DNA of 37,019 bases from an uncultured Lachnospiraceae bacterium. Its GTDB lineage: Bacteria; Bacillota; Clostridia; Lachnospirales; Lachnospiraceae. Shown in pieces: positions 9,209 through 30,611 of this stretch. Position numbers and translations under genes: made by a program. Below the pieces are notes generated by a model. It was not told the origin of the DNA. It saw only the letters and a program-made list of their open reading frames with translations, and searched no databases. The first letter of the stretch is position 1. Each line of letters opens with the position of its first letter. Where the stretch lies: positions 1-37,019 of the forward strand of contig CATNCF010000028.1 in NCBI GenBank assembly GCA_950097145.1, in the 5' to 3' direction.

Positions 9209-9230
9209 AATCATGATTAGGAATATAATA

Positions 9231-9397
9231 GGATAGAGGTTGCGTGATTCATAAGTAGATTATCCGATGTGACAGGCACAGAAGAAGATAACCGAAAGGG
9301 AAGAGCGCCGAAAGGATTTGTTTCCTGTAAATGGATTCTTGGGCATATAATGAATAATTATATGACTGTCATCTTACATTTGGATGGTGAGCTATCG
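9231..9397 (+). promoter_or_regulatory. Lysine riboswitch (L box) aptamer
   Basis: The leader contains the conserved lysine-riboswitch segments in order: GATAGAGGTTGCG, AGTAGA, GAAAGGGAAGAGCGCCGAA, GGGCAT, GACTGTCA and GGTGAGCTATC. P1 forms between GATAG (9232-9236) and CTATC (9392-9396). Lysine binding should favour the downstream terminator and reduce dapA-dapB transcription, matching their role in lysine and diaminopimelate synthesis. Confidence 0.9.
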
Positions 9398-9420
9398 AAG
9401 AGTTATCAGAGTATCTTTAG

Positions 9421-9601: not shown

Positions 9602-10501
9602 ATGGCGCTTTTTAAAGGAGCTGGTGTTGCACTGGTAACACCTATGAAAGAAAATCTGGAAGTAGACTACGATAAACTGGCAGAGCTTCTGGAAGACCAG
9701 ATTAAAAATCAAACGGATAGCATTATTATTACAGGAACCACAGGGGAGGCCTCTACACTGACAGAGGAAGAGCATCTTGAGGTGATTCGTGCGGCTGTCT
9801 CCATTGTAAATAAACGGATTCCGGTCATCGCTGGAACAGGTTCTAACTGTACCAGGACGGCGGTTGATTTATCACGCAGGGCACAGGAAGCTGGTGCAGA
9901 TGGGTTATTGGTGGTGACGCCTTACTATAATAAGGCGACTCAGAAGGGGCTTATCAGCCATTATACCCAAATTGCAGGAAGTGTGGATCTGCCTGTTATT
10001 CTTTATAATGTACCAGGAAGGACTGGCTGCAAGATTGCCGTGGAAACAGCGGCAGCCCTGGCAAGAGAGGTAGAGAACATTGTAGGTATGAAGGATGCGG
10101 TGGGGGATATTTCATACACCTTAAGGCTGATGGAACAGACACAGGGAGATTTCGAGCTGTATTCCGGAGAGGACGGGCAGGTAATTCCGCTTCTTGCGTG
10201 CGGCGGAATCGGTGTAATTTCTGTGCTGTCCAATGTGGCGCCTAAATTCATGCATGACATGGTAATGAATTATCTGGAAGGACGGCAGCAGGAAGCCCTT
10301 TCCATGCAGTGGAAGGCGATCCCAATGGTGGATGCACTGTTCTGTGAGGTGAATCCCATTCCAGTGAAGGCGGCCCTGAATCTTATGGGCTGGCAGGTGG
10401 GTTCTCTGCGTGCGCCTCTCAGCGATATGGAGCCGGAGAATGTAAAACGCCTGGCAAAAGCCATGCAGGAGTTTGGAATTTCTGTAACGATACCAAACTA
10501 A
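9602..10501 (+). CDS. dapA: 4-hydroxy-tetrahydrodipicolinate synthase
   Basis: Condenses pyruvate with aspartate semialdehyde, the first committed step of diaminopimelate and lysine synthesis. Full length (299 residues) TIM barrel with GTTGE near residue 44, YNVPGRTG with Tyr135, and the Schiff-base lysine in GMKDA (Lys164). AGGAGGAAAG lies upstream of ATG 9602. It is the first gene of a dapA-dapB pair and is preceded by a lysine riboswitch, so it should be repressed by lysine. Confidence 0.97.
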   Translation: MALFKGAGVALVTPMKENLEVDYDKLAELLEDQIKNQTDSIIITGTTGEASTLTEEEHLEVIRAAVSIVNKRIPVIAGTGSNCTRTAVDLSRRAQEAGADGLLVVTPYYNKATQKGLISHYTQIAGSVDLPVILYNVPGRTGCKIAVETAAALAREVENIVGMKDAVGDISYTLRLMEQTQGDFELYSGEDGQVIPLLACGGIGVISVLSNVAPKFMHDMVMNYLEGRQQEALSMQWKAIPMVDALFCEVNPIPVKAALNLMGWQVGSLRAPLSDMEPENVKRLAKAMQEFGISVTIPN

Positions 10502-10573
10502 TATTTGTGCCGGCATATGAGTTCTGCCAGGTATCATAGAGCCGCACATCTGCACATACAGGAGGAAGAGAAC

Positions 10574-11335
10574 ATGATAAAAATGATTATGCACGGCTGC
10601 AACGGAAAAATGGGGCAGGTTATTACAGGCATCTGTAAAGAAGACCATGAAATTGAAATTGCAGCAGGGATAGATCCATATACGGGAGTCCAAAATGACT
10701 ATCCAGTATTTGCCAATATTGCAGAGTGTAATGTGGAGGCGGATGTGGTGGTTGATTTTGCATCAGCAGGGGCAGTGGACGATCTATTAGATTATTGTAT
10801 CAGCCATAAGCTTCCGGTGGTTCTCTGTACCACTGGATTAAGCCAGGAACAGCTTGCGCGGGTGGAAGAGGCCGGCAGACAGACAGCGGTGCTGAGATCT
10901 GCCAATATGTCTCTGGGCATCAATATGCTCATGGATTTACTGCAGAAGGCGGCAAAGACGTTAGCTCCGGCAGGTTTTGATATGGAAATTGTGGAAAAGC
11001 ACCATAATCAAAAGGTGGATGCTCCCAGCGGTACAGCTCTTGCCCTTGCAGATTCCCTGAATGATGCGCTGGAGAATGCCTATGCCTATAATTATGACAG
11101 GACTTTGGACAGAAAAAAGCGTGAGAAATACGAAATTGGAATCCAGGCTGTCCGGGGAGGTAACATTGTGGGAGAGCATGAGGTTATTTTTGCCGGGGTG
11201 GATGAAGTTATTGAATTTAAACATACGGCATATTCTAAGGCTGTTTTTGCAAAAGGCGCAGTGGAAGCGGCAAAATTTCTGGCGGGCAGGGCCCCAGGCA
11301 GATATGAGATGAGCGATGTGATTGCACAAGTATAG
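10574..11335 (+). CDS. dapB: 4-hydroxy-tetrahydrodipicolinate reductase
   Basis: NAD(P)H-dependent reductase acting directly after DapA. The N-terminal Rossmann motif is HGCNGKMGQVI, followed by VVDFASAGAV, CTTGLS, and the C-terminal catalytic region EKHHNQKVDAPSGTALALAD with the His-His-Asn and Lys expected of DapB. The tail RGGNIVGEHEVIFAG and the FAKGAVEAAKFLAG helix are also typical. 253 residues from ATG 10574, which has GGAGGAAGAG upstream; the open frame starts 23 codons earlier, but that stretch has no similarity to DapB. A strong terminator follows, so the operon is dapA-dapB only. Confidence 0.96.
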   Translation: MIKMIMHGCNGKMGQVITGICKEDHEIEIAAGIDPYTGVQNDYPVFANIAECNVEADVVVDFASAGAVDDLLDYCISHKLPVVLCTTGLSQEQLARVEEAGRQTAVLRSANMSLGINMLMDLLQKAAKTLAPAGFDMEIVEKHHNQKVDAPSGTALALADSLNDALENAYAYNYDRTLDRKKREKYEIGIQAVRGGNIVGEHEVIFAGVDEVIEFKHTAYSKAVFAKGAVEAAKFLAGRAPGRYEMSDVIAQV

Positions 11336-17900: not shown

Positions 17901-18734
17901 ATGGAATATTATGCAGGTGCAGAACGGGAACATTTATGTGGCAGAAGGAAAAGAACTTCTTTGAGAAAGAAAAGAGCGGCCCAGCGCAGACGGCGGAGGC
18001 TCTTGTCAGTTATGTTTTTGCTATTAGCGGCAGGTCTTTTTTTCTATGGCAAAACCTTATTTCCATTGATTTTTCAGGCAGGGGGGAGCAGAGCCGCGCA
18101 GTTTTTAAGTTCCATAAGGCGGGAAGAGTATCCAAAGGAACTGATAGAAATGCTGGAAAAGAATGATGAGACTTATGATTTTGTGACAAATTATCCCAAA
18201 CGGGAAGAATATCTTGGACAGGAAATTGATATTTCCGGGATTTGCAAAGAAGGAGAGGCTCCATTGCTGATGCAGTGGGACTTACGCTGGGGATATGATA
18301 AATATGGAAACAGCATGATTGGACCTTCTGGCTGCGGCCCTACTTGTATGACCATGGCATATCTTTGCCTTACGGGGGACACACAGATGAATCCCCGGAA
18401 TATGGCAGAATATGCACAGGAACATGGATATAATACAGAGGCTGGGACAAGCTGGAACTTTTTTACAGAGGGGGCAGAGGGTCTGGGACTTTTCGGCCAA
18501 GAGCTGCCTTTAAGTGAATCTGTAATGAAGCAGGCGCTGGATCAGGGAAGCGTAATTATCTGCAGTATGCGGCCGGGTGATTTTACTACAACAGGGCATT
18601 TTATCCTGCTGCGGGGCTATGATGAAAACGGATTCCTGGTCAATGACCCCAACAGCAGGAAGAACAGTGAAAAGCAATGGAATTATGACGCCTTAAGCGG
18701 TCAGATAAAATGTTTATGGGAGATTGGAACATGA
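17901..18734 (+). CDS. Membrane-anchored C39-like cysteine peptidase
   Basis: A 277-residue protein with a highly basic N-terminus (RRKRTSLRKKRAAQRRRRRL) and one hydrophobic anchor (~35-55), so the body should face outside. The C-terminal domain fits Peptidase_C39_2: LLMQWDLRWGYDKYG, catalytic Cys in GPSGCGPTCMTM, His in TTTGHFILLRGY and Asp in FLVNDPNS. No ABC transporter is fused or adjacent, so this is not a bacteriocin exporter; cell-wall or surface-protein cleavage is more likely. GAAAGGA precedes ATG 17901. It follows the VanRS-like pair by 125 nt and overlaps the next gene by 4 nt. Confidence 0.8.
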   Translation: MEYYAGAEREHLCGRRKRTSLRKKRAAQRRRRRLLSVMFLLLAAGLFFYGKTLFPLIFQAGGSRAAQFLSSIRREEYPKELIEMLEKNDETYDFVTNYPKREEYLGQEIDISGICKEGEAPLLMQWDLRWGYDKYGNSMIGPSGCGPTCMTMAYLCLTGDTQMNPRNMAEYAQEHGYNTEAGTSWNFFTEGAEGLGLFGQELPLSESVMKQALDQGSVIICSMRPGDFTTTGHFILLRGYDENGFLVNDPNSRKNSEKQWNYDALSGQIKCLWEIGT

Positions 18735-19378
18735 AATACAAAGGATTAGTTTTTGATTTTGACTATACTCTGGGAGATTCTACAGAGGGCATTGTGATAA
18801 GTGTAAATTATGCATTGGAACGGCTGGGGTATGCTGTGGCAGAGCGGGAGGCAGTTCGAAAAACCATTGGCCTGCATTTAGAGGAGACCTACCGGGTATT
18901 GACGCAGGATGAGAGGGAGGAGCAGGCGGCAGAGTTTTCCAGATTGTTTGTGGAGAAGGCCGATCAGGTGATGACAGAATTTACCCAGCTTTTTCAGGGA
19001 GTGCCGGAGCGATTGGAAAAATGGAAACAGCAGGATTATAAGATTGGAATTGTCACCACGAAATATCATTACCGCATTGATGAGATTTTAAAAAAGTATC
19101 AGGCGGGACATTTGGTGGATCTTATTATTGGCGGGGATGATGTAAAGCGTCCGAAACCGGACCCGGAGGGCGTTTTACAGGTGCTGGATGCATGGCATAT
19201 GGATATAACAGAGATCTTGTATGTGGGGGACAGCCTGGTAGATGCAAAGACGGCACAGAACGCAGGGGTAGATTTTGCGGGAGTAACCACAGGCGCCACA
19301 AGTAAGGAAGAACTTGAAAATTACCCGGGGGTTGGGGTGTTTCCGGGGCTTATGGAACTGGAACGTTTCATAGGGTGA
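18731..19378 (+). CDS. HAD-family phosphatase, phosphoglycolate phosphatase-like
   Basis: HAD hydrolase with nucleophile motif VFDFDYTLGDS, a helical cap, Thr in IVTTKYHYR, Lys in KRPKPDP and metal-binding GDSLVDAKTAQNAG. 215 residues from ATG 18731, which overlaps the peptidase stop codon (ATGA), indicating translational coupling. Substrate cannot be told from sequence; phosphoglycolate or nucleotide-type small phosphates are typical of this group. Confidence 0.88.
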   Translation: MKYKGLVFDFDYTLGDSTEGIVISVNYALERLGYAVAEREAVRKTIGLHLEETYRVLTQDEREEQAAEFSRLFVEKADQVMTEFTQLFQGVPERLEKWKQQDYKIGIVTTKYHYRIDEILKKYQAGHLVDLIIGGDDVKRPKPDPEGVLQVLDAWHMDITEILYVGDSLVDAKTAQNAGVDFAGVTTGATSKEELENYPGVGVFPGLMELERFIG

Positions 19379-19531
19379 AATATGGGCGTTTGTGCGTTCT
19401 GACAGGAAGAATTTTTAGACGATTGGTAAAAGTGTACAAATTCAATGCGCATTATTGGTAAATATGCAGCATTGACATTAATAAAAAAATAATATAATAT
19501 ATGATTACAATATAAATAATAAGCAAAACGC
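19379..19531 (+). promoter_or_regulatory. Promoter region of nucleoside operon
   Basis: TTGACA at 19472-19477 is followed after 17 nt by TAATAT (a TATAAT overlaps it with a 15-nt spacer). Transcription would begin about 25 nt before the aptamer. The rest of the stretch after the HAD gene shows no gene. Confidence 0.7.
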
Positions 19532-19598
19532 AAATTTATGTATGTTCACGATTGGGTGAATGTTTCTACAAACCACCGTAATGGTTGACCATGAATTT
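19532..19598 (+). promoter_or_regulatory. Purine riboswitch aptamer, guanine type (C74)
   Basis: A three-way junction is visible. P1: AAATTTATG (19532-19540) with CATGAATTT (19590-19598), 9 bp with one wobble. P2: GTTCAC with GTGAAT, loop GATTGG. J2/3: the invariant GTTTCTAC (19562-19569). P3: AACCA with TGGTT, loop CCGTAA. J3/1 reads GAC, giving C at the specificity position (19589), as in guanine-sensing members. The usual A21-U75 pair is replaced by G-C (19540-19590), a compensated change. Both kissing loops are one base shorter than in the xpt aptamer, and the first P3 pair is an A-G mismatch. Confidence 0.88.
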
Positions 19599-19646
19599 CA
19601 GGAAAAAATAATTCTGATATTTACGATCGTCCATTACGGTTTTTTT
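19576..19646 (+). terminator. Terminator that uses the aptamer P3 arm
   Basis: CCGTAATGG (19576-19584, loop and 3' arm of P3) is perfectly complementary to CCATTACGG (19631-19639), followed by seven T residues. Forming this hairpin destroys P3, so a ligand-stabilised aptamer should prevent termination. Confidence 0.8.
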
Positions 19647-19666: not shown

Positions 19667-19690
19667 AAAATCACCCCAAAGGGGGATTTT
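19667..19690 (+). terminator. Second hairpin after the riboswitch
   Basis: AAAATC-CCCC pairs with GGGGGATTTT around AAA, with one bulged A, followed by ATATAAT. It is terminator-like but lacks a clean T-run; it may insulate or add control before the ribosome binding site at 19753. Confidence 0.5.
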
Positions 19691-19765: not shown

Positions 19766-21010
19766 ATGAAAAGAAGAATCATGGCAATGTTACTTGCCTG
19801 CACAATGATATTCTCATTGACAGGCTGCGGAGGGAATGGAGATTCCAAGAGTGAGAGCGGCACCAAGAGTGAAACGCAGACAGATGCAGAGGGTGAAAAA
19901 GGTGATGCGGCAGATGATACAGCAGAAGCCACAGATATGCAAGTGGCAATGATCACCGACTCTGGAGACATCACAGACCAGAGTTTTAACCAGACAACAT
20001 ATGAAGCATGTAAAGCATGGACGGAAAGCAATGGCGTTACTTTTGAGTATTTTAAACCAGAGAGTGACTCCGATGAAGCCCGCAGCGCAAGCGTGGATCA
20101 GGCGATAGCAGCTGGATACAACGTAATTGTAATGCCGGGATATATGTTTGCGGCAGCTATCGTAGAGAAAGCGGCGGATTATCCTGACGTAAAGTTTATT
20201 GGTATTGACGTTGGCGCTGGAGATATTTTGGAAAAAGGCGTAGGAGAGGGTTATGATTACAATCCTGACAATTGGAATGTAGAGGAATACTACAATAAAG
20301 ATAATGTATACTGCTGTACTTACCAGGAAGAGATTTCCGGCTACATGGCAGGATACGCAGCAGTTAAGATGGGCTACAAGCACTTAGGTTTCTTAGGCGG
20401 CATGGCAGTTCCTGCTGTTACAAAATTTGGATATGGTTATGTGCAGGGAGCAGATGCAGCGGCAAAAGAGATGGGTATTGAAAAAGACGTTCAGGTAGAA
20501 TTTGTATATGGCGGACAGTTCTATGGCGACGCAGATATTACAGGAACAATGGATACCTGGTACAGCAGCAACGGTGTAGAAGTAGTATTTGCCTGCGGAG
20601 GCGGAATTTATACTTCAGCAGCAGAGGCAGCAAAGAAGGTAGGAGGCAAAGTAATCGGTGTTGACTCTGACCAGTCTGGAATTATCAACGAGTATGGCGA
20701 CGGCATGACAATTACTTCCGCTATGAAGGGTCTTACTCCTACTGTAATGAATCTGCTTGAAGAAATTAAGGCAGGAAACTGGGGAAATTATGCAGGAAAG
20801 ATTGATCTTCTTGGAATGGTATCTGAGAACCCAGAAGAAAATTATGTACAGCTTCCTATAGATACCACCGTATGGAACGATGGATTTAGCGAAGATGACT
20901 ATAAGAACCTTGTAAAGTCTATCTTTACTGGTGAGGTTCAGGTTTCCAACGATATTTCCAAAGAACCGGAAACTGCAATTAAATTAACAATTTCCCCGAA
21001 TATCAAATAA
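19766..21010 (+). CDS. nupN: BMP-family nucleoside-binding lipoprotein
   Basis: Extracellular solute receptor of a nucleoside ABC importer. Lipoprotein signal MKRRIMAMLLACTMIFSLTGCGG with lipobox LTGC, an acidic Ser/Glu/Asp-rich linker (residues 20-55), then a PnrA/BMP domain: VAMITDSGDITDQSFNQTTYEA, SVDQAIAAGYNVIVMPGYMF, GFLGGMAVPAVTKFGYGYVQGADA, VVFACGGGIYTSAAEA and VIGVDSDQSG. BMP proteins of this type bind purine and other nucleosides. AAGGAGG precedes ATG 19766. It is the first gene of the operon under the purine riboswitch, and a stable hairpin follows it, a common way to keep receptor mRNA more abundant. Confidence 0.92.
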   Translation: MKRRIMAMLLACTMIFSLTGCGGNGDSKSESGTKSETQTDAEGEKGDAADDTAEATDMQVAMITDSGDITDQSFNQTTYEACKAWTESNGVTFEYFKPESDSDEARSASVDQAIAAGYNVIVMPGYMFAAAIVEKAADYPDVKFIGIDVGAGDILEKGVGEGYDYNPDNWNVEEYYNKDNVYCCTYQEEISGYMAGYAAVKMGYKHLGFLGGMAVPAVTKFGYGYVQGADAAAKEMGIEKDVQVEFVYGGQFYGDADITGTMDTWYSSNGVEVVFACGGGIYTSAAEAAKKVGGKVIGVDSDQSGIINEYGDGMTITSAMKGLTPTVMNLLEEIKAGNWGNYAGKIDLLGMVSENPEENYVQLPIDTTVWNDGFSEDDYKNLVKSIFTGEVQVSNDISKEPETAIKLTISPNIK

Positions 21011-21027
21011 GAATTTTGGGGGCTGAG

Positions 21028-21048
21028 GGAATGGGCTTTGCCCATTCC
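21028..21048 (+). promoter_or_regulatory. Intercistronic hairpin between receptor and ATPase genes
   Basis: GGAATGGGC and GCCCATTCC form a 9-bp stem around TTT without a T-run, so it probably stabilises the upstream mRNA rather than terminating. A second palindrome, GCTTTTAATTTTAAAAGC, follows at about 21058-21075. Confidence 0.6.
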
Positions 21049-21096
21049 TTCCACTAAGCTTTTAATTTTAAAAGCAAAGAAAAGGAGAGTGGTATC

Positions 21097-22626
21097 GTGG
21101 CAGATTATGCAATTGAAATGCTGAACATTACGAAGAGATTTCCGGGCATTATAGCAAATGACAATATCACCCTGCAGCTTAAAAAAGGTGAAATCCATGC
21201 ACTGCTTGGCGAGAATGGTGCAGGAAAATCCACGTTGATGAGTGTGCTTTTTGGATTGTACCAGCCAGAGGAAGGCGAAATCCATAAGGACGGCAGGAAA
21301 GTGGAAATCAACAACCCAAATGATGCTGATGCATTGGGGATCGGAATGGTACACCAGCACTTTAAGCTGGTAGAATGTTTTAGCGTATTGGATAATATTA
21401 TTCTTGGAGTGGAAACCACAAAGGGCGGGATATTACAGAAAGATGAAGCCAGGAAAAAAGTGCTGGCCCTTTCTGAAAAATATGGATTCCAGGTGGATCC
21501 AAATGCTCTGATTGAAGACATAACGGTGGGAATGCAGCAGAGAACTGAGATCTTGAAAATGCTCTACCGGGATAACGAGATACTTATTTTTGACGAACCT
21601 ACGGCAGTTTTAACGCCTCAGGAAATACAGGAATTGATGACAATCATGAAGAATCTTGCCGCAGAGGGCAAGAGCATCCTGTTTATTACACATAAACTTG
21701 CAGAGATTATGCAGGTGGCCGATCGCTGCAGCGTCCTTCGAAAAGGAAAATATATCGGGACTGTGGATATCAAAGATACCACGCCGGAAAAACTTTCTGC
21801 CATGATGGTAGGACGCGACGTCAATTTTGTTGTGGAAAAGAAGCCTGTAAAGCCTGGCAAGGTGATTCTGGATGTACAGAATATGACAGTGGCATCCAAG
21901 CGGCATAAAAATAATGCAGTCAACGGTGTGTCCCTGAACGTACGAGAAGGAGAGATTGTTTGTATTGCAGGAATTGACGGGAACGGCCAGACAGAGTTTG
22001 TATATGGACTTACCGGGTTAGAACCCTTAAAGGAAGGAAAAATCACACTGCATGGAGAGGATTTCACACAGATGCCTATCCGCAAACGTTCCATAAAGGG
22101 AATGAGCCATATCCCGGAGGACAGACATAAACACGGCCTGGTATTGGATTATTCTCTGGAAAATAATATTGTGCTTCAGAGGTATTTTGAACCTCAGTTT
22201 ACCAATAAATTTGGGTTCCTTAAGAAAAAAGAGATTCGGGACTATGCAAACCGCTTGATCGAACAGTATGATGTAAGATCTGGGCAGGGGCCAATCACAA
22301 AAGCCCGCAGTATGTCCGGCGGTAACCAGCAGAAGGCGATTATTGCCAGAGAGATTGATAAGAATCCGGAACTTCTGGTTGCAGTCCAGCCTACCCGTGG
22401 ACTGGATGTAGGGGCAATCGAATATATTCATAAACAGCTTGTGGCACAGAGGGATGCTGGAAAGGGTGTATTGCTGGTAAGTCTGGAACTGGATGAAGTT
22501 ATGAATGTGTCCGACCGGATTCTTGTTATGTACGAAGGAGAAATCGTAGGTGAATTTGATCCGAAAGAAGTTACCGTGGAAGAACTTGGCCTTTACATGG
22601 CTGGCTCTAAGAGAAAGGGGGCGTAA
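21097..22626 (+). CDS. nupO: Nucleoside ABC transporter ATP-binding protein (two ABC domains)
   Basis: Tandem ATPase of the NupO type. First domain: Walker A GENGAGKST, signature VGMQQR, Walker B ILIFDEPTAVLTPQE. Second domain: degenerate P loop IAGIDGNGQTE, signature MSGGNQQKAIIAREI, and VQPTRGLDVGAIEYI in place of a full Walker B-Glu. One good and one degenerate site is usual for sugar/nucleoside CUT2-like ATPases. Start is GTG 21097 with AAAAGGAGAG upstream. 509 residues. Followed after 5 nt by the first permease. Confidence 0.94.
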   Translation: MADYAIEMLNITKRFPGIIANDNITLQLKKGEIHALLGENGAGKSTLMSVLFGLYQPEEGEIHKDGRKVEINNPNDADALGIGMVHQHFKLVECFSVLDNIILGVETTKGGILQKDEARKKVLALSEKYGFQVDPNALIEDITVGMQQRTEILKMLYRDNEILIFDEPTAVLTPQEIQELMTIMKNLAAEGKSILFITHKLAEIMQVADRCSVLRKGKYIGTVDIKDTTPEKLSAMMVGRDVNFVVEKKPVKPGKVILDVQNMTVASKRHKNNAVNGVSLNVREGEIVCIAGIDGNGQTEFVYGLTGLEPLKEGKITLHGEDFTQMPIRKRSIKGMSHIPEDRHKHGLVLDYSLENNIVLQRYFEPQFTNKFGFLKKKEIRDYANRLIEQYDVRSGQGPITKARSMSGGNQQKAIIAREIDKNPELLVAVQPTRGLDVGAIEYIHKQLVAQRDAGKGVLLVSLELDEVMNVSDRILVMYEGEIVGEFDPKEVTVEELGLYMAGSKRKGA

Positions 22627-22631
22627 GCGGC

Positions 22632-23771
22632 ATGAATAAGAAAAATAATACCAGAGACAGTATTTTGAGAAATGATGGATTTCAGACGATTATTGCTTCT
22701 CTGCTTTGCATTTTGCTGGGACTGCTGGTAGGTTATATCGTTCTTTTGATTATCAATCCTTCAGGAGCTGCAGGAGCGATTTCTTCTATTCTCAAGAACT
22801 TTCTGTATTATCCCAGTGCGGCTGCGGCAACGAAATATCTGGGCACTACGCTGGTAAAAGCATCGGCGCTGCTGATGTGTTCCCTTTCCGTTTTGTTTGC
22901 CTATAAAGTTGGATTGTTCAATATCGGTGCGGCAGGCCAGTATGTGGTAGGAGCCGGCGCGTGTCTCTATTGCGCAATCGCATTGCATCTGCCCTGGATT
23001 GTATGTCTCTTGGCTGCAGTTCTTGCATCTGCAATTGTTGGTGGAATTTCTGGAGCGTTGAAAGCTTATTTCAATGTAAATGAAGTTATTTCCTGTATTA
23101 TGCTGAACTGGATTGGACTATATGCAGTGAATATGCTGCTGACTACAGTGAAAGAGGAGACGACGCCTTACACAAAACCTCTTAGTTCAGCCAACAGCAG
23201 TGCGATTCTGCCTACGCTTGGACTGGATAAACTGTTTTCCAACAATAAGTTTGTGGGCCTGGGATTAATTATCTCGATTGTGATGGCAGTTTTAGTATGG
23301 ATTATCCTGGAAAAAACGAAATTTGGATTTGAATTGAAAGCGACGGGTATGAATAAGCTGGCGGCAAAATACTGCGGTATGCGCGAGAAAACCAACATCA
23401 TTCTTACCATGATGATTTCAGGAGCTCTCGCAGGATTAGGAGCAGCCTGCTTTTATCTGACCGGCGTGGAGCAGTGGATGGTTCAGCAGACCAGCGTTCC
23501 CAGCATGGGATTTAACGGAATAGCTTCTGCCTTTCTGGGTGGCTTAAATCCCATTGGAGCAATTTTTTCATCTTACTTTATCCAGCATATTACCAGCGGA
23601 GGTTCTTATGTGGATAAAACCATGTACTGTGCACAGATTTCAGATTTAATCTCTGCATTTATCATTTACCTTTGTGGTTTTGTACTCTTCTTCAAGCTCT
23701 GGCTCAACAGATACCTGGATAAGAGAGAGGAAAAACAAGGGATGAAAGCTCAGAAAGGAGGCGAAGCATAA
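22632..23771 (+). CDS. nupP: Nucleoside ABC transporter permease 1
   Basis: A 379-residue membrane protein of the branched-chain-amino-acid/ribose permease superfamily with about nine or ten hydrophobic segments. It shows GLFNIGAAGQYVVGAGA near residue 95 and FNVNEVISCIMLNWIG near 140, typical of NupP/YufP. It forms the heteromeric channel with NupQ. It follows nupO by 5 nt, and its stop overlaps the start of the next permease by one base (TAATG), so translation is coupled. Confidence 0.93.
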   Translation: MNKKNNTRDSILRNDGFQTIIASLLCILLGLLVGYIVLLIINPSGAAGAISSILKNFLYYPSAAAATKYLGTTLVKASALLMCSLSVLFAYKVGLFNIGAAGQYVVGAGACLYCAIALHLPWIVCLLAAVLASAIVGGISGALKAYFNVNEVISCIMLNWIGLYAVNMLLTTVKEETTPYTKPLSSANSSAILPTLGLDKLFSNNKFVGLGLIISIVMAVLVWIILEKTKFGFELKATGMNKLAAKYCGMREKTNIILTMMISGALAGLGAACFYLTGVEQWMVQQTSVPSMGFNGIASAFLGGLNPIGAIFSSYFIQHITSGGSYVDKTMYCAQISDLISAFIIYLCGFVLFFKLWLNRYLDKREEKQGMKAQKGGEA

Positions 23772-24712
23772 TGCTGTTGTTGATTCAATATACATTGATA
23801 TTTGCTTCTGTTCTGCTGCTGGTGGCATTGGGCGGCTGTTTTTCTGAACACAGCGGCGTCATCAATATCGGTTTGGAAGGCATTATGGTAATGGGTGCGT
23901 TAGGCGGCGCTCTGATGATGAAATTTCTTCCAGGCGGAACTCCTGCAGTGGCGGTAATTCTGATGGTAATAGTAGCAAGCGTGCTTCTGGGAATCTTGTT
24001 TTCCCTGCTGCTGGGGGTGGCAGCAATCCAGTTTAAGGCGGACCAGACACTGGTTGGAACAGCGCTGAATCTGCTAGGAACAGCAGCAGCCGTTGTAGTT
24101 GTTAGAGCTATCAATATGGCAGAAAATCCAGATAATGTATCCACCACTGTCTCTTATATGAAGGAAAAAGAAGCCTTTCTATTGAAGATAGGAAAATTTG
24201 AGTTTAACTGGTTTATGCTGATTGCCCTTCTTCTGTTGATTGCAGCTTATGTAGTATTATATAAAACACGGTTCGGCCTGCGCCTTTGCGCCTGCGGGGA
24301 ACATCCACAGGCAGCGGATTCTGTGGGAATTAACGTTTACAAAATGCGTTATGCGGGCGTGATTATTTCCGGGGCCCTTGGGGGACTTGGAGGCGTTGTA
24401 TACATTACTGCGGGCGTTAGCGAGTGGAAGTTTGAAAATGGTGTGGCAGGTTTTGGATTCCTGGCTCTGGCCGTTATGATTTTTGGACAATGGAAACCGG
24501 TTAATATCGGTTTGGCAGCATTGCTCTTTGGATTGTTCCGTGCACTTTCCAACGTCTACACAGGATTTGATTTCTTGATGAAACTGAATATTCCTGGTAC
24601 ACTTTATAATATGTTCCCATACATTATTTCACTGATCGTCCTGATCTTTGTTTCTAAGAAATCCAGGGCGCCAAAAGCGGAAGGAATTCCGTATGACAAG
24701 GGACAGCGGTAA
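23771..24712 (+). CDS. nupQ: Nucleoside ABC transporter permease 2
   Basis: A 313-residue partner permease with about eight hydrophobic segments. The family motif near the start is EHSGVINIGLEGIMVMGALGGAL, and RFGLRLCACGEHPQAADSVGINVYKMRYAG marks the loop that contacts the ATPase (EAA-like). With NupN, NupO and NupP it completes an importer related to the guanosine transporter of Bacillus subtilis; exact substrate range is inferred. AAAGGAGG precedes ATG 23771. Confidence 0.93.
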   Translation: MLLLIQYTLIFASVLLLVALGGCFSEHSGVINIGLEGIMVMGALGGALMMKFLPGGTPAVAVILMVIVASVLLGILFSLLLGVAAIQFKADQTLVGTALNLLGTAAAVVVVRAINMAENPDNVSTTVSYMKEKEAFLLKIGKFEFNWFMLIALLLLIAAYVVLYKTRFGLRLCACGEHPQAADSVGINVYKMRYAGVIISGALGGLGGVVYITAGVSEWKFENGVAGFGFLALAVMIFGQWKPVNIGLAALLFGLFRALSNVYTGFDFLMKLNIPGTLYNMFPYIISLIVLIFVSKKSRAPKAEGIPYDKGQR

Positions 24713-24774
24713 CATCAGTAATAATTTTCTGATATTACTCTGCCAAAGTAATACAATTAGGAGGAGGTTTGAAC

Positions 24775-25551
24775 ATGAAGAATTATTCAGAGGATGCCAG
24801 CAGGCAGTACCATATCCAGGTGGCAGAAGGAGAAGTTGGACGTTATGTGATTCTTCCTGGTGATCCAAAACGGTGTGAGAAAATCGCGAAATATTTTGAT
24901 GATCCAGTGCTGATTGCAGATAACCGGGAGTATGTTACGTATACAGGAACCCTGGAGGGGGTGAAAGTCAGCGTAACTTCTACTGGAATCGGCGGACCGT
25001 CGGCTTCTATTGCCATGGAAGAACTGTACCGCTGCGGTGCAGATACTTTTATCAGGATTGGCACCTGCGGCGGCATGCAGAAAGATATTAAGAGCGGCGA
25101 CGTGGTAGTTGCAACAGGTGCAATCCGTATGGAAGGAACCAGCCGGGAATATGCGCCTATGGAATTTCCAGCCGTGGCAGATTTGACGGTTACAAATGCT
25201 TTAACGGCAGCCGCAAAGAAAAAGGGTGTGGCATTCCATACTGGTGTAGTACAGTGCAAGGACGCCTTTTATGGGCAGCATGAGCCAGAGACAAAACCAG
25301 TAAGCTATGATTTAATGAATAAATGGGAGGCATGGAAGCGGATGGGGTGTCTGGCTTCTGAAATGGAATCTGCTGCGTTGTTTATCGTGGCAAGTTACCT
25401 GAGAGTCCGGGCAGGTTCCTGTTTCCTTGTGGTGGCAAACCAGGAAAGAGAGAAACTTGGTCTGGAGAACCCTGTGGTTCATGATACAGATACGGCAATC
25501 CAGGTAGCGGTAGAAGCTATCCGGGATTTGATACTGCAGGAGAAACGCTAA
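24775..25551 (+). CDS. udp: Uridine phosphorylase
   Basis: Splits (deoxy)uridine with phosphate into uracil and (deoxy)ribose-1-phosphate. NP-I family, hexameric type: [18 protein letters not shown] near residue 22, [42 protein letters not shown] and [12 protein letters not shown] (the nucleoside-binding EMES motif). 258 residues from ATG 24775, with AGGAGGAGG upstream; an in-frame TTG 24769 is less likely. Immediately after the transporter, linking uptake to phosphorolysis. Confidence 0.93.
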
Positions 25552-25577
25552 GGCAGCCCAGAAAGGAAGTAGAAAAA

Positions 25578-26243
25578 ATGGAAGTAAAAGAAATGATGAA
25601 ACATGTGGATCATACATTACTGACCCAGACAGCTACCTGGGAGGAAATTAAACAGATATGCGACGACGCCATGGAATATGGAACAGCATCCGTATGCATT
25701 CCTCCCAGCTATGTGAAACAGGCAAAGGAATATGTAAAGGATCGGATGGAAGTCTGCACAGTCATTGGATTTCCCAATGGGTATTCCACTACGGCAGTCA
25801 AAGAGTTTGAGACAAAAGATGCCATCCAGAGCGGAGCGTCAGAAATTGATATGGTAATCAATATTGGATGGCTGAAAGATAAGAAATATGATTTGGTGCT
25901 GGAGGAAATCCATACGCTGAAAAAAGCCTGCGGGGATAAAATACTGAAGGTAATTATTGAGACCTGCCTTTTAACAGAAGAGGAGAAGGTGAAAATGTGC
26001 GAACTTGTAACGGAGGCAGGGGCAGATTATATCAAAACTTCTACGGGATTTTCTACGGCAGGCGCGACATTTGCGGACATTGAATTATTTGCAAAAAATA
26101 TTGGAGCCAATGTAAAAATGAAGGCGGCAGGCGGAATTTCTACTTTAGAGGATGCAGAAAAATTCCTTTCTCTGGGGGCAGACCGCCTGGGGACCAGCAG
26201 GATGATTAAATTGGTAAAAGGACAGAGCGCTTCTGGATATTAA
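25578..26243 (+). CDS. deoC: Deoxyribose-phosphate aldolase
   Basis: Converts 2-deoxyribose-5-phosphate to acetaldehyde and glyceraldehyde-3-phosphate. Full-length (221 residues) class I aldolase: VDHTLL near the start, the Schiff-base lysine in YIKTSTGFS (Lys153), and a second lysine in [18 protein letters not shown] lies upstream. It is the final step for sugars released from deoxynucleosides by the phosphorylases of this operon. Confidence 0.96.
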
Positions 26244-26282
26244 GGAACATTGTATCGTTAGCCTAGAATATGGAGGGTTATG

Positions 26283-26702
26283 ATGTTAGACGAAAAAATC
26301 ACAGAAAAATTAATTGTAACGGCAATCGAACAGCTTGATTACTCCTATACGCCCTATTCTAATTTCAAGGTAGGCGCTGCGCTGCTGGCGGAAAATGGCA
26401 ATATATACAAAGGCTGCAATATTGAAAATGCAGCCTATACGCCCACCAACTGCGCGGAGCGGACGGCTTTTTTCAAAGCAGTCAGCGAAGGAGTAAAAGA
26501 GTTTAAGGCAATTTGTGTGGTTGGCGGAAAAAATGGAGAATTGACAGAATATGCGCCTCCCTGCGGTGTATGCAGGCAGGTCATGATGGAATTTTGTAAT
26601 CCAGATAAATTTCAGATAATCCTGGCGGTGAGTCCGGAACAATATAAAATTTTTACCCTTAGGGAAATACTTCCATTAGGATTCGGTCCGGGAAATCTGT
26701 AA
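26283..26702 (+). CDS. cdd: Cytidine deaminase
   Basis: Deaminates (deoxy)cytidine to (deoxy)uridine, which Udp then cleaves. Homotetramer-type, about 139 residues. Zinc site: CAE in NCAERTAF and PCGVC in APPCGVCRQVMMEF; substrate motif YSNFKVGAALL. Two adjacent ATG codons (26280 and 26283) follow GGAGGG; the second has the better spacing. Confidence 0.96.
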   Translation: MLDEKITEKLIVTAIEQLDYSYTPYSNFKVGAALLAENGNIYKGCNIENAAYTPTNCAERTAFFKAVSEGVKEFKAICVVGGKNGELTEYAPPCGVCRQVMMEFCNPDKFQIILAVSPEQYKIFTLREILPLGFGPGNL

Positions 26703-26746
26703 TTTATTATTTTTGAGAAATACGGAATAGAAAGGGTTTGGTGGCT

Positions 26747-27727
26747 ATGACGACAGAGCAGCTGAAAAAATTACCGAAAATAGAGCTGCACTGCCATTTG
26801 GATGGTTCTCTGAGCATGGAATTTATCCAGAAAAAACTTGGAAAGAGTGTTTCATGCCAGGAGGTTCAGGTTTCCAAAAACTGTGGCAGTTTAGCAGAGT
26901 ATCTGGAAAAGTTTGAACTGCCTTGCCAGTGCCTGCAGGATGCAGAAGGACTGAGAGAGGCGGGATACGATTTCCTGAGAACTGCCAGCCGTGAAAATGT
27001 AGTTTATACAGAGGTAAGGTTTGCTCCCTTACTATCTGTGGGCCTTGGCTTAAATACAGAACAGGTCATTTCCAGCCTGCTAAAAGGTCTTGCCGAAGGA
27101 AAGCGGGATTTTGGCGTGGAATATAACGTTATCACTTGCGCCATGCGCCACCATAGCCCGGAAGACAATTTAGAGATGCTGAAAGCAGCCCGGGAATTTT
27201 TAGGAGAAGGCGTATGCGGGGCAGATTTGGCAGGGGCAGAGGCATCCTATCCAATGAGTAATTTTATTGGACTGTTTGAGAAGGTAAAAAAGATAGGGAT
27301 GCCCTTTACAATACATGCAGGGGAATGTGGAAATGCCTGGAATATTGTCCAGGCAGCAGAAGCAGGGGCAAAGCGGATCGGTCATGGGATTGCTATGGCC
27401 GGGAAGCCGCAAATCCGGCAGATGTGCAGGGAACGGCAGATTGGAATTGAAATGTGTCCGGTCAGTAATCTGCAGACGAAGGCGGCGGAAAGCATGAACA
27501 ATTATCCACTGCGTGAATTTTTGGATATGGGGCTGCTGGTTTCTGTGAATACGGATAACCGGACGGTCAGCGGAACTTCATTGACAGAGGAACTGGAGCT
27601 TGTGCAAAAGGGCTGCGGTGTCAGTGATGAAGAAATACGGCTGCTTCAGAGAAACGCTCTGGAGACAGCTTTTGCAGAAGAATCAGTAAAACACAAGATG
27701 CTGAAACGGCTGACTCAGGCATTTTGA
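26747..27727 (+). CDS. add: Adenosine deaminase
   Basis: Converts (deoxy)adenosine to (deoxy)inosine, the substrate for the purine nucleoside phosphorylase at the operon end. Metal and catalytic residues: HCHLDGS near residue 15, HAGECGN, IGHGIAM and VNTDNRTVSGTS. The second Asp of the more familiar TDDP motif is Asn here; I recall this variant in other Gram-positive members, so it need not mean loss of activity. 326 residues from ATG 26747; an earlier GTG (26741) is close and possible. Ribosome site GAAAGGG. Confidence 0.93.
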   Translation: MTTEQLKKLPKIELHCHLDGSLSMEFIQKKLGKSVSCQEVQVSKNCGSLAEYLEKFELPCQCLQDAEGLREAGYDFLRTASRENVVYTEVRFAPLLSVGLGLNTEQVISSLLKGLAEGKRDFGVEYNVITCAMRHHSPEDNLEMLKAAREFLGEGVCGADLAGAEASYPMSNFIGLFEKVKKIGMPFTIHAGECGNAWNIVQAAEAGAKRIGHGIAMAGKPQIRQMCRERQIGIEMCPVSNLQTKAAESMNNYPLREFLDMGLLVSVNTDNRTVSGTSLTEELELVQKGCGVSDEEIRLLQRNALETAFAEESVKHKMLKRLTQAF

Positions 27728-27785
27728 AAGAGCAGGCAGTGAGGCATCTGTATGATAGAAAGCAGAGAAAGAGAGGTGAAAAAGG

Positions 27786-28973
27786 ATGGGAAAGTATAAT
27801 AGAATTTTTGTGATCGTGTTGGATTCTCTGGGGATCGGCGCAATGCCGGACTCTGAAAAATTTGGCGATACAGGGGTTGATACCTTTGGCCATATTGCAG
27901 AACGGCTGGGGACTCTGGAAATTCCAAATCTTAAGAGACTTGGCATGTTGAACCTCCATCCTACAGGGAACATGGAAGCAGAGGATCATCCGGCAGGATG
28001 TTACATGCGTCTGGGAGAGGCCAGCAATGGGAAAGATACCATGACCGGACACTGGGAAATGATGGGAATCAAGACAGAAAAGCCTTTCCAGACCTTTACC
28101 GATACAGGCTTCCCGCCGGAACTGATAGCAGAACTGGAGAAACGCTGCGGCAAACGGGTGATAGGGAATAAAAGTGCAAGCGGGACAGAAATTTTAGAGG
28201 AACTTGCAGAGGAAGAAATCCGCACAGGAGCTATGATCGTATATACTTCTGCGGATTCAGTCCTTCAGATTTGCGGAAATGAAGAAACGTTTGATCTGGA
28301 GAACTTATACCGCTGCTGTGAGATCGCAAGGGAGATTACCCTGAAAGACGAGTGGAGAGTAGGGCGTGTCATTGCAAGACCATATGTCGGGAAGAAAAAA
28401 GGTGAATTTAAACGGACCAGCAACCGTCATGATTATGCTTTGAAGCCTACCGGACCTACGGTGTTAAATGCATTGAAAGATGCTGGCATGGACGTCATTG
28501 GAATAGGTAAAATTAATGATATTTTCTGCGGAGAAGGTATTACAGAAACCCATCACTCTGACAGTTCCGTGCATGGAATGGAGCAGACAATTGCTATCTG
28601 CAAAGAAGATTTCCATGGCCTTTGTTTTGTGAACCTTGTGGATTTTGACGCATTGTGGGGGCATCGGAGAGATCCGCAGGGATATGGAAAAGAGATTGAG
28701 AAGTTTGATAAAAATCTTGGAGTTTTACTTGAGGAACTGAGAGATGATGATCTTCTGATTCTCACAGCAGATCATGGAAACGACCCCACTTATACCGGGA
28801 CGGATCATACCAGGGAATACGTGCCGTTTCTGGCATATGCAAAAGGAATGAAAGGAGGGGCTCTCGCTCCGGAAGATACTTTTGCTGTTATTGGGGCGTC
28901 CGTTGCAGATAATTTTGGGATTGCAATGCCAGAGGGGACAATTGGGTTCTCTATTTTGGATAAGCTGGTGTAA
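27786..28973 (+). CDS. deoB: Phosphopentomutase
   Basis: Moves phosphate between C1 and C5 of (deoxy)ribose, linking phosphorylase products to DeoC and the pentose phosphate pathway. Alkaline-phosphatase superfamily: metal motif [14 protein letters not shown] at the start, [28 protein letters not shown] and [22 protein letters not shown]. 395 residues, full length. GAGAGGTG upstream. Only 3 nt separate it from the next gene. Confidence 0.96.
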
Positions 28974-28976
28974 AGG

Positions 28977-29618
28977 ATGAAGGGAAAGGATAAAAGAGAG
29001 CAGATTGCAAGAATTTTTTTGGCATTAGCAGGCATTTTGCTGGTTGGGGTGGGCATAAGCTTCAACGCAGCAGCTCTATTGGGAAATGATCCAATTGGAA
29101 TTGTATACGATGGAATTAGAAATGCGGCTGGGCTTTCTTCAAAGCAATTGGGAGCTGCATCTAACATTACTAATATTCTGCTGCTTGTGGTAGTGTTTTT
29201 TACAGGCAGACGATATGTTAATATCGGAACTTTAATTTACCTGCTTCCTTATGGCCTGGTGGTAAGTCTCGGGAGTAAATTATATCCCTTGATATTCAGA
29301 ACACAGACGCTGTTTTCCCAAATATGCGGCGCTGCTATAGGGTGTATGCTGCTGTATACAGGTGTTGCAATGTTTATTGTGGCAGATATCGGGCTGGATC
29401 CGTTTACAGGTTTTGTAATGGTAATCCAGGATGCCGTCAAGAAGGAATACCGGGTGGTAAAAATTGGCTTTGATGTTTGCTGTGTTATCCTTGGATTCTT
29501 GCTGGGGGGAAAATTGGGGATTATTACAATTATCACAGCTTTAGCAGCGGGACCTTTGATACAACTGCAGGCTGAGATGATAAAAAAAATAATAGGAAGG
29601 AGAATGGAATTTCAATGA
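28977..29618 (+). CDS. YczE/YitT-like membrane protein inside the nucleoside operon
   Basis: A 213-residue integral membrane protein with about five or six hydrophobic helices. Sequence features such as GISFNAAALLGNDPIGIVYDGI, NIGTLIYLLPYGLVVSLG and ADIGLDPFTGFVMVIQDAV repeat the pattern of the YczE/YyaS/YitT family, which has no established transport function. It is tightly embedded: 3 nt after deoB and overlapping pnp by 4 nt (ATGA). Position suggests a role with nucleosides, bases or phosphate sugars, for example base export, but the sequence does not show it. Confidence 0.75.
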   Translation: MKGKDKREQIARIFLALAGILLVGVGISFNAAALLGNDPIGIVYDGIRNAAGLSSKQLGAASNITNILLLVVVFFTGRRYVNIGTLIYLLPYGLVVSLGSKLYPLIFRTQTLFSQICGAAIGCMLLYTGVAMFIVADIGLDPFTGFVMVIQDAVKKEYRVVKIGFDVCCVILGFLLGGKLGIITIITALAAGPLIQLQAEMIKKIIGRRMEFQ

Positions 29619-30436
29619 ACCAGATTTATGAGAAGACAATGAAATGTGCTGAAATTGTGAAGTCAAAGGTGGATTTTAAGCCAGAAGCGGCGCTGATTCT
29701 TGGCTCAGGATTGGGAGAATATGCAAAGAATATGGATGTAAAAGCAGAGCTGTCCTATTCTGAGATTGAAGGGTTTCCAGTGTCAACGGTGGCAGGCCAC
29801 GACGGACGTTTTCTGTTTGGCTATGTGGAGGGCGTGCCCGTTGTATTGATGAAAGGAAGGGTTCATTACTATGAAGGATATGAGATGTCAGACGTAGTAA
29901 TGCCTACCAGAATCATGGGACTTCTGGGCGCTAAAAAATTAATTCTTACCAACGCTGCAGGCGGTGTGAATCTTTCTTATAAGCCTGGAGATCTGATGAT
30001 GATCACAGATCATATTTCCGCTTTTGTGAAGAGTCCGCTGATTGGTCCGAACTTGGAGGAATTGGGAACCAGATTTCCTGATATGAGCAATGTCTATGAC
30101 ACAGAGTTGTGTGATAAGATCCGGAACGCAGCAGACAAACTTAAGGTTCAAATCCAGGAAGGTGTTTATGTCCAATGCAGCGGTCCGAATTATGAGACGC
30201 CTGCAGAGATTCGGATGTACCGGACCTTAGGGGCAGATGCTGTGGGAATGAGTACCGTGTGTGAGGCAATGACTGCTGCACATATGGGAATGAAAGTCTG
30301 CGGTATTTCCTGTATTACCAATATGGCGGCAGGAATTTTGGATCAGCCTTTGGATCATAAAGAGGTTCAGGAGGTAGCAGACCGGGTAAAAGATACCTTT
30401 GAAAAATTAGTAACGGAAATTATTAAGACCATATAA
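29615..30436 (+). CDS. pnp: Purine nucleoside phosphorylase (trimeric type)
   Basis: Cleaves (deoxy)inosine and (deoxy)guanosine with phosphate to base and sugar-1-phosphate. Class II NP family: ILGSGLGEYA phosphate loop, AGHDGRFLFG, GRVHYYEGYEM, LTNAAGGVN, SGPNYETPAEIR, VGMSTVCEAMTA (Glu) and SCITNMAAGI (Asn). That Glu and Asn pair favours 6-oxopurines over adenosine, which fits adenosine deaminase being upstream. 273 residues. Start overlaps the preceding stop. Last gene of the operon. Confidence 0.95.
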   Translation: MNQIYEKTMKCAEIVKSKVDFKPEAALILGSGLGEYAKNMDVKAELSYSEIEGFPVSTVAGHDGRFLFGYVEGVPVVLMKGRVHYYEGYEMSDVVMPTRIMGLLGAKKLILTNAAGGVNLSYKPGDLMMITDHISAFVKSPLIGPNLEELGTRFPDMSNVYDTELCDKIRNAADKLKVQIQEGVYVQCSGPNYETPAEIRMYRTLGADAVGMSTVCEAMTAAHMGMKVCGISCITNMAAGILDQPLDHKEVQEVADRVKDTFEKLVTEIIKTI

Positions 30437-30441
30437 TAGTC

Positions 30442-30493
30442 CGGGTAAACTTTTCTGGATGATAACCCCAGATCATGCTTATCCCGTATTTTT
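30442..30493 (+). terminator. Operon terminator after pnp
   Basis: CGGGTAA (30442-30448) pairs with TTATCCCG (30479-30486, one bulge), with an inner stem TCTGG/CCAGA, followed by TATTTTT. Confidence 0.7.
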
Positions 30494-30527
30494 AGAGGTT
30501 GTCTATTTTTTTTACCCTTTTTTAAGG

Positions 30528-30569
30528 ATTTTTACTAATTTTTTGGAGATTTTTACTGAAATTTTTACT
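30528..30569 (+). repeat. Triple ATTTTTACT repeat upstream of surface-protein gene
   Basis: ATTTTTACT occurs at 30528-30536, 30549-30557 and 30561-30569 (spacings of 21 and 12 nt) in a T-rich leader. A regulator-binding role is possible; simple low-complexity sequence is an alternative. Confidence 0.6.
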
Positions 30570-30570
30570 A

Positions 30571-30591
30571 GCCGCCGCGTGCTGCGGCGGC
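30571..30591 (+). promoter_or_regulatory. GC-rich hairpin before ribosome binding site
   Basis: GCCGCCGC and GCGGCGGC form a perfect 8-bp GC stem with a 5-nt loop, 8 nt before AAAGGAG. It stands out in the surrounding AT-rich leader and could protect the long mRNA's 5' end or affect translation. No T-run follows, so it is not a terminator. Confidence 0.7.
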
Positions 30592-30611
30592 AGGATGAAA
30601 GGAGAATTTGA

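Follow-up and report, generated by a model that had tools for sequence, protein, structure and literature searches.

The DNA analyzed here (the window) is a stretch of 37,019 nucleotides from an uncultured Lachnospiraceae bacterium (assembly GCA_950097145.1, contig CATNCF010000028.1). A leader at 19529–19646 sits between a HAD-family gene (18710–19378) and the gene for a Bmp-type lipoprotein (Table 1). The latter opens an operon (19766–30436) whose intergenic gaps are all <100 bases, and a sister species of the same genus carries all eleven operon genes in the same order. Profile models assign to these genes the import and breakdown of nucleosides, in agreement with the catabolic role that a first-pass annotation of this DNA had given them. 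Because no guanine deaminase model match over cut-off was found in the window's genome (82.8% complete) or in the sister genome, while hypoxanthine-guanine phosphoribosyltransferase was found in both, it is probably the pentose that the operon harvests, with the guanine from its purine nucleoside phosphorylase left for salvage. Guanine from this enzyme would be a reasonable inducer.

Table 1. Features of the leader and of the operon behind it (positions are those of the window).
Feature	Positions	Strand	Basis or detail
Promoter-like site, TTGACA - 17 nt - TAATAT	19472–19500	+	Consensus scan, 10/12
Purine riboswitch aptamer, P1 to P1	19532–19598	+	RF00167, 50.6 bits
P1 5' strand	19532–19540	+	Partner strand 19590–19598; G21 (19540) with C75 (19590)
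P2 hairpin, 18 nt	19544–19561	+	Loop L2 GAUUGG, 19550–19555
J2/3, GUUUCUAC	19562–19569	+	U47 at 19563, U51 at 19567
P3 hairpin, 18 nt	19570–19587	+	Loop L3 CCGUAA, 19576–19581; A-G mismatch 19570/19587
J3/1	19588–19589	+	A73, C74 (guanine-type specificity base)
Terminator hairpin, 19575–19603 / 19612–19640, 8-nt loop	19575–19640	+	Minimum free energy fold of leader; overlaps L3, P3 3' strand, J3/1, P1 3' strand
Run of 7 T after terminator hairpin	19640–19646	+	Sequence
Second hairpin, A/U-rich outer stem, terminator-like	19667–19690	+	-10.7 kcal/mol
Bmp/PnrA-type nucleoside-binding lipoprotein	19766–21010	+	PF02608, 110.5 bits
ABC ATPase and two permeases (21097–22626, 22632–23771, 23771–24712)	21097–24712	+	PF00005, PF02653
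Uridine phosphorylase	24769–25551	+	TIGR01718, 343.8 bits (cut-off 280.3)
deoC, deoxyribose-phosphate aldolase	25578–26243	+	TIGR00126 over cut-off
Cytidine deaminase	26280–26702	+	TIGR01354 over cut-off
Adenosine deaminase	26738–27727	+	TIGR01430 over cut-off
deoB, phosphopentomutase	27786–28973	+	NF003766, TIGR01696 over cut-off
YczE-like membrane protein	28977–29618	+	NF052291, 67.7 bits, below cut-off 205
Purine nucleoside phosphorylase, inosine/guanosine type	29615–30436	+	NF006054, TIGR01700 over cut-off

Within 1.4 kb, six promoter-like sites such as that in Table 1 were found where 3.2 are expected, so that taken singly each is weak evidence. The second hairpin (AAAATCACCCC-AAA-GGGGGATTTT) is nearly identical in the sister species despite a preceding spacer of different length, and may serve as a terminator (for either direction) or as an RNA processing site. 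Next after the nucleoside operon lies a gene for a 2078-aa protein with Ig-like domains (30612–36848; weak CehA/McbA match, 63.4 bits, cut-off 80), which is possibly related to the protein encoded behind the second purine riboswitch of this genome (L001, below). Directly before its ribosome-binding site, past an unusually T-rich stretch, is a perfect GC-rich hairpin (30571–30591; GCCGCCGC...GCGGCGGC), and an Rfam search of 30420–30640 gave no match. Elsewhere in the window, a lysine riboswitch (RF00168, 119.1 bits) occupies 9226–9402, ~200 bases before dapA (9602–10501) and dapB (10505–11335).

In a covariance search, the Rfam Purine riboswitch model RF00167 covered 19516–19611 over its full length (model positions 1–102) with a score above the gathering cut-off of 37 bits. 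This confirmed 19532–19598 as a genuine purine riboswitch element, and with it the guanine-type C at 19589 that the first-pass annotation had pointed out. Pocket positions are numbered here by the xpt scheme, fitted via the Rfam alignment. All of the pocket bases of guanine riboswitches, U22, U47, U51, and C74, are present, which predicts guanine as the ligand. The departures from the usual consensus are a G21-C75 pair (G19540–C19590) in place of the nearly invariant A21-U75, an A54-G72 mismatch as the first pair of P3, an 18-nt P2 hairpin, and L2 and L3 loops of 6 nt each against 7 nt in the Rfam consensus. The mismatch and the short loops had been noted before; G21-C75, the most unusual change in the core, had not. 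Pair 21-75 flanks the pocket and makes no ligand contact that defines C74-type specificity. The element is distinct from adenine riboswitches (C in place of U74), from Guanine-II (J2/3 passes into P3 with no insertion against the Rfam model), and from 2'-dG-II in its U51 and its J3/1 of AC that lacks a two-base insertion, though it shares with 2'-dG-II the G-C pair at the junction-proximal end of P1. Over the aptamer stretch, the native fold (-13.9 kcal/mol) is not the ViennaRNA minimum (-16.6 kcal/mol).

The minimum-energy fold of the whole leader (-32.9 kcal/mol) keeps P2 and replaces P1 and P3 with one long hairpin of -23.5 kcal/mol, whose 5' arm takes up, in order, L3 (19576–19581), the P3 3' strand (19582–19586), J3/1, and the P1 3' strand. 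The terminator had been described earlier as built from the P3 arm (19576–19584 with 19631–19639); that pairing exists, but it is part of a longer hairpin whose base includes L3 and not simply the P3 arm. When the downstream part was dinucleotide-shuffled 1000 times, no shuffle was as stable as the observed hairpin (best shuffle, -19.7 kcal/mol), and the same result (0/1000 each) was obtained for all four copies found in the genus. Because the terminator is built from the aptamer's own strands, the folded aptamer and the terminator are mutually exclusive, as the first-pass annotation had argued in predicting the ON direction. The best leader structure that keeps the aptamer was -21.2 kcal/mol, computed without tertiary contacts or ligand; the terminator is thus favoured by 11.7 kcal/mol at equilibrium, so that switching would have to be kinetic and decided during RNA synthesis. 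With a 5' arm drawn from L3, P3, J3/1, and the P1 3' strand and with no separate terminator, the platform is of the pbuE type, and the best reading of the leader is a predicted transcriptional ON switch like that of pbuE.

Guanine riboswitches are textbook OFF switches. It is therefore necessary to consider that this leader is an ordinary OFF switch whose terminator and antiterminator have been misread, as would fit the OFF direction of the characterized guanine riboswitches in the available portions of the respective papers, namely yxjA (PMC9756952), four of C. difficile (PMC11477304), and nupR of B. thuringiensis (PMC9430930), and the OFF calls at five other Bmp loci in Lachnospiraceae. Against this reading, the best hairpin running from past P1 up to the same T-run is +0.1 kcal/mol, alternative pairing between the P1 3' region and downstream sequence reaches just -3.1 kcal/mol at best, and the terminator arm lies within the aptamer in 4/4 genus copies. 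The competing terminator/antiterminator pair on the P1 3' strand, named beforehand as one result that would overturn the ON prediction, was thus not found in this leader, and we rejected the OFF reading as very improbable.

Two RF00167 matches are present in the window's genome, the one described above and L001 (G000:C23:17809-17904; terminator, -41.4 kcal/mol), and likewise two in the sister species (L032 and L083). Purine riboswitches occur in only 2 of the 29 genomes of the genus, and a Bmp protein (E 1e-30 or better) occurs in the same two, both of which show a further, lower-scoring PF02608 match at another place. G21-C75 is common to all four copies, which also share the type of terminator whose 5' arm lies inside the aptamer. 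Across the family and class sets described below, 211 of the 213 aptamers were parsed, with only C or T allowed at position 75; C75 was found in 4 of these 211, all from the two species of this genus and all with G21. (The parse of position 74 read L080 as U74, though its sequence shows GAC.) The four stand before the nucleoside uptake and catabolism operon or before a giant surface protein: L001 and L032 precede giant secreted proteins with Ig-like domains (2512 and 2433 aa), and a scan of the L001 protein alone found a CehA/McbA metallohydrolase domain over cut-off. Solved structures searched with a portion of the giant surface protein L096 yielded nothing useful. The class, the core bases, the mutual exclusion, the absence of a competing terminator, and the conservation in the sister species and the paralogous leader are computed results; the four copies are few and closely related.

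These copies also bear on whether the leader is degraded or mainly constitutive, that is, a poorly binding aptamer (G21-C75, A-G mismatch, short loops) with the hairpin a mere attenuator. The score is low for the class (50.6 bits, where the class scan reached 98.8), the core departs from consensus at several points, and L083 scores only 40.1 bits. Against this, G21-C75 is a two-sided change retained by four copies from two species, the copies barely differ over the 42 columns between J2/3 and the P1 3' strand while P2 varies with its pairing kept, and the 3' arm still matches the aptamer in every copy. We regard degradation as improbable. A viral source of the G21-C75 aptamers was also considered and rejected, since a pattern search of viral contigs gave 0 matches; the pattern is short, and two of its four matches in genome contigs (Chitinophaga and Acinetobacter) were taken as chance.

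The wider distribution was surveyed by scanning 299 Lachnospiraceae genomes, which gave 83 RF00167 matches in 65 genomes (all 83 loci examined), and 245 genomes of the class, which gave 137 matches, 131 of them outside Lachnospiraceae (130 examined; G420:C23 left out). Under loose criteria, the Lachnospiraceae loci comprised 57 ON, 17 OFF, and 9 undecided (n = 83), and those outside comprised 39, 67, and 24 (n = 130). Strict criteria, set after the loose result because ON had been assigned to loci in which a good hairpin follows P1, gave 38 ON, 23 OFF, and 22 undecided in Lachnospiraceae (n = 83), and 7, 70, and 53 outside (n = 130). Four of these 7 ON loci are adenine-type, and they are every U74 locus outside Lachnospiraceae, which agrees with the known pbuE switch; this 4/4 control is not fully independent, because the strict limit for the start of the 5' arm (22 nt from the core) was chosen once the adenine-type loci were known to lie at 21–22. 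The C74 loci outside Lachnospiraceae (n = 125) gave 3 ON, 70 OFF, and 52 undecided. In a swap test of 37 Lachnospiraceae ON loci, the own 3' arm paired with its own L3/P3 better than foreign arms did (mean, -16.7 vs -11.6 kcal/mol; median rank 3/36, worst 29/36), although some loci did no better than with foreign arms. One locus outside Lachnospiraceae, L213 (G392:C77:340790-340885), is of adenine type (U74) and has both the short loops seen here and an ON layout.

The first large downstream proteins of the 83 Lachnospiraceae loci were 25 amidohydrolases, 13 FAD-dependent proteins, 8 xanthine/uracil-type permeases, 7 Bmp proteins, 4 xanthine dehydrogenases, 3 MATE transporters, 2 giant surface proteins, and 7 others, with none found at 14. 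One member in each of five groups was named by models: the amidohydrolase matched a guanine deaminase model (349.7 bits, below the cut-off of 375.4), the xanthine dehydrogenase matched XdhA (705.1 bits, below the cut-off of 780, piece only), and the others were the FAD-dependent protein, the permease, and the MATE transporter. Judging from these layout calls, the ON layout seems to accompany purine breakdown genes in Lachnospiraceae. The five Bmp loci of other Lachnospiraceae genera were OFF in both the loose and the strict pass; an antiterminator overlapping the terminator arm was clear in L006 and L023, was suggested by eye only in L005, and was not seen in L007 and L077. Only transporter genes, and no deo-type genes, were found behind them, which suggests from these few loci that the direction at Bmp loci follows the task of the operon, OFF for transport only and ON for catabolism. 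Two to four purine riboswitches are present in several Lachnospiraceae genomes, upstream of differing genes for purine breakdown (L020, L033, L034, L013, and similar loci), the genes behind them being of guanine deaminase type, xanthine dehydrogenase, and permease; this looks like an RNA-controlled purine regulon.

Loop length goes along with direction. When both sets were pooled under strict criteria, P2 hairpins of ≤19 nt had 37 ON and 18 OFF calls and longer ones 8 and 75 (Fisher p = 1.3e-12, kinship ignored; one unparsed P2 counted as long). With the loose calls in Lachnospiraceae, the figures were 51 ON and 6 OFF against 6 and 11 for P2 (p = 2e-5), and 39 ON and 6 OFF for L3 of ≤6 bases against 18 and 11 for longer L3 (p = 0.02), kinship again ignored in both. 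According to the accessible part of PMC7707468, the L2-L3 contact of xpt is too stable for invasion by the pbuE terminator, and weakening it in xpt/pbuE chimeras restores switching. By analogy, the shorter kissing loops may be an adaptation to ON wiring that eases invasion of L3. The short loops and the A-G pair had been offered as a hint of a nucleoside ligand; since short P2 hairpins accompany the ON layout also in relatives with an ordinary core, and since L032 has C54-G72 in place of the A-G pair, we rejected this argument.

We consider it probable that this leader is a guanine-class purine riboswitch acting as a transcriptional ON switch of the nucleoside operon. The nascent RNA would first fold the three-way-junction aptamer. 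With guanine bound (perhaps hypoxanthine or xanthine at higher levels), P1, P3, and the L2-L3 contact would hold, the 3' arm (19612–19640) would be blocked from invading, and the polymerase would continue into the operon. With no ligand, the 3' arm would displace P1, J3/1, P3, and L3 in turn, forming the terminator and stopping transcription at the T-run. The operon's purine nucleoside phosphorylase would free guanine inside the cell from imported guanosine or deoxyguanosine, and guanine would thereby report the nucleoside supply and drive a positive loop. We infer the ligand, direction, kinetics, and physiology of the switch.

In the portion of PMC8872408 available to us, the junction-proximal A-U pair (21-75) is described as nearly invariant, G-C there marks 2'-dG-II together with C51 and two extra J3/1 bases, and C51 is critical as the main determinant of nucleoside selectivity, guanine and adenine classes having U51. 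G21-C75 could alter the affinity or the ligand. It could have shifted the pocket so that the natural ligand of this ON switch is guanosine or 2'-deoxyguanosine, which would agree with the G-C mark of 2'-dG-II, whose downstream genes include DNA-acting ones in the same text, with an operon that handles nucleosides and deoxynucleosides, and with the ON prediction for 2'-dG-III riboswitches on nucleoside hydrolase genes in the available text of PMC9295807. Set against this, U51 is kept and J3/1 lacks the two-base insertion, both unlike 2'-dG-II as far as PMC8872408 was available, and the short loops and A54 are common to loci with an ordinary core. A nucleoside ligand is in our view unlikely. It is likewise unlikely that the four G21-C75 aptamers form a separate specificity subclass, built on the guanine scaffold, which senses guanosine, 2'-deoxyguanosine, or a pool of guanine compounds and induces in the ON direction the uptake and breakdown of nucleosides freed from nucleic acids by surface enzymes. 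With U51 present and the C51 and J3/1 marks of 2'-dG-II absent, we expect guanine as the ligand of the present switch, but see an appreciable chance that its selectivity has changed.

Should the calls hold, one gut bacterial family mostly uses the guanine-type aptamer the other way round, inducing the breakdown of purines and nucleosides, and several relatives of this bacterium seem to share the wiring for purine breakdown genes. This wider picture of guanine-type ON switches linked to the breakdown of purines and nucleosides matters more than the one locus by itself. The ON group makes the rewiring of one aptamer testable, with shorter kissing loops letting the terminator invade L3, and the G21-C75 copies are a natural test of how far the pair flanking the pocket sets ligand choice. 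No report of ON guanine riboswitches in Lachnospiraceae was found in open-licence full text; most subscription papers, including a 2017 variant survey, lie outside this, and the absence is weak evidence.

Among known systems, the element resembles Guanine-I (xpt and yxjA type; RF00167) in its three-way junction, C74, U51, U47, and U22, and differs in its ON layout, G21-C75, and 6-nt loops, Guanine-I riboswitches being OFF where characterized in the sources available to us, with A21-U75 and 7-nt loops. An ON layout is less exceptional for a guanine-binding RNA than the first-pass annotation supposed, since many Lachnospiraceae loci look ON and since PMC9295807, in its accessible text, already predicts as ON the guanine-II, xanthine-II, and 2'-dG-III riboswitches, with guanine-I in Paenibacillus OFF. 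Like the Paenibacillus Guanine-II of that text, the present aptamer is of guanine class and predicted ON; unlike it, J2/3 has no insertion, whereas Guanine-II has one and stands mostly on phosphoribosyltransferase genes. With 2'-dG-II it shares, by the available description, the G-C pair at the junction-proximal end of P1 and the link to DNA or nucleoside use, and not the C51 and the two extra J3/1 bases. 2'-dG-III is likewise predicted ON before nucleoside breakdown genes and deviates from the guanine consensus in each of its three joining regions, a comparison made by description in the accessible text only. The closest parallel in layout is pbuE, whose gene product is an efflux pump. Its expression platform overlaps the aptamer through P3 (PMC9756952) and its terminator has to invade L3 (PMC7707468), as described in the parts available of both papers. 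Like the B. subtilis pbuE switch, the leader described here has a transcriptional ON layout with a terminator that overlaps the aptamer through P3 and needs to invade L3; unlike that adenine riboswitch (U74), it combines this layout with C74, kissing loops one base shorter, G21-C75, and a catabolic operon.
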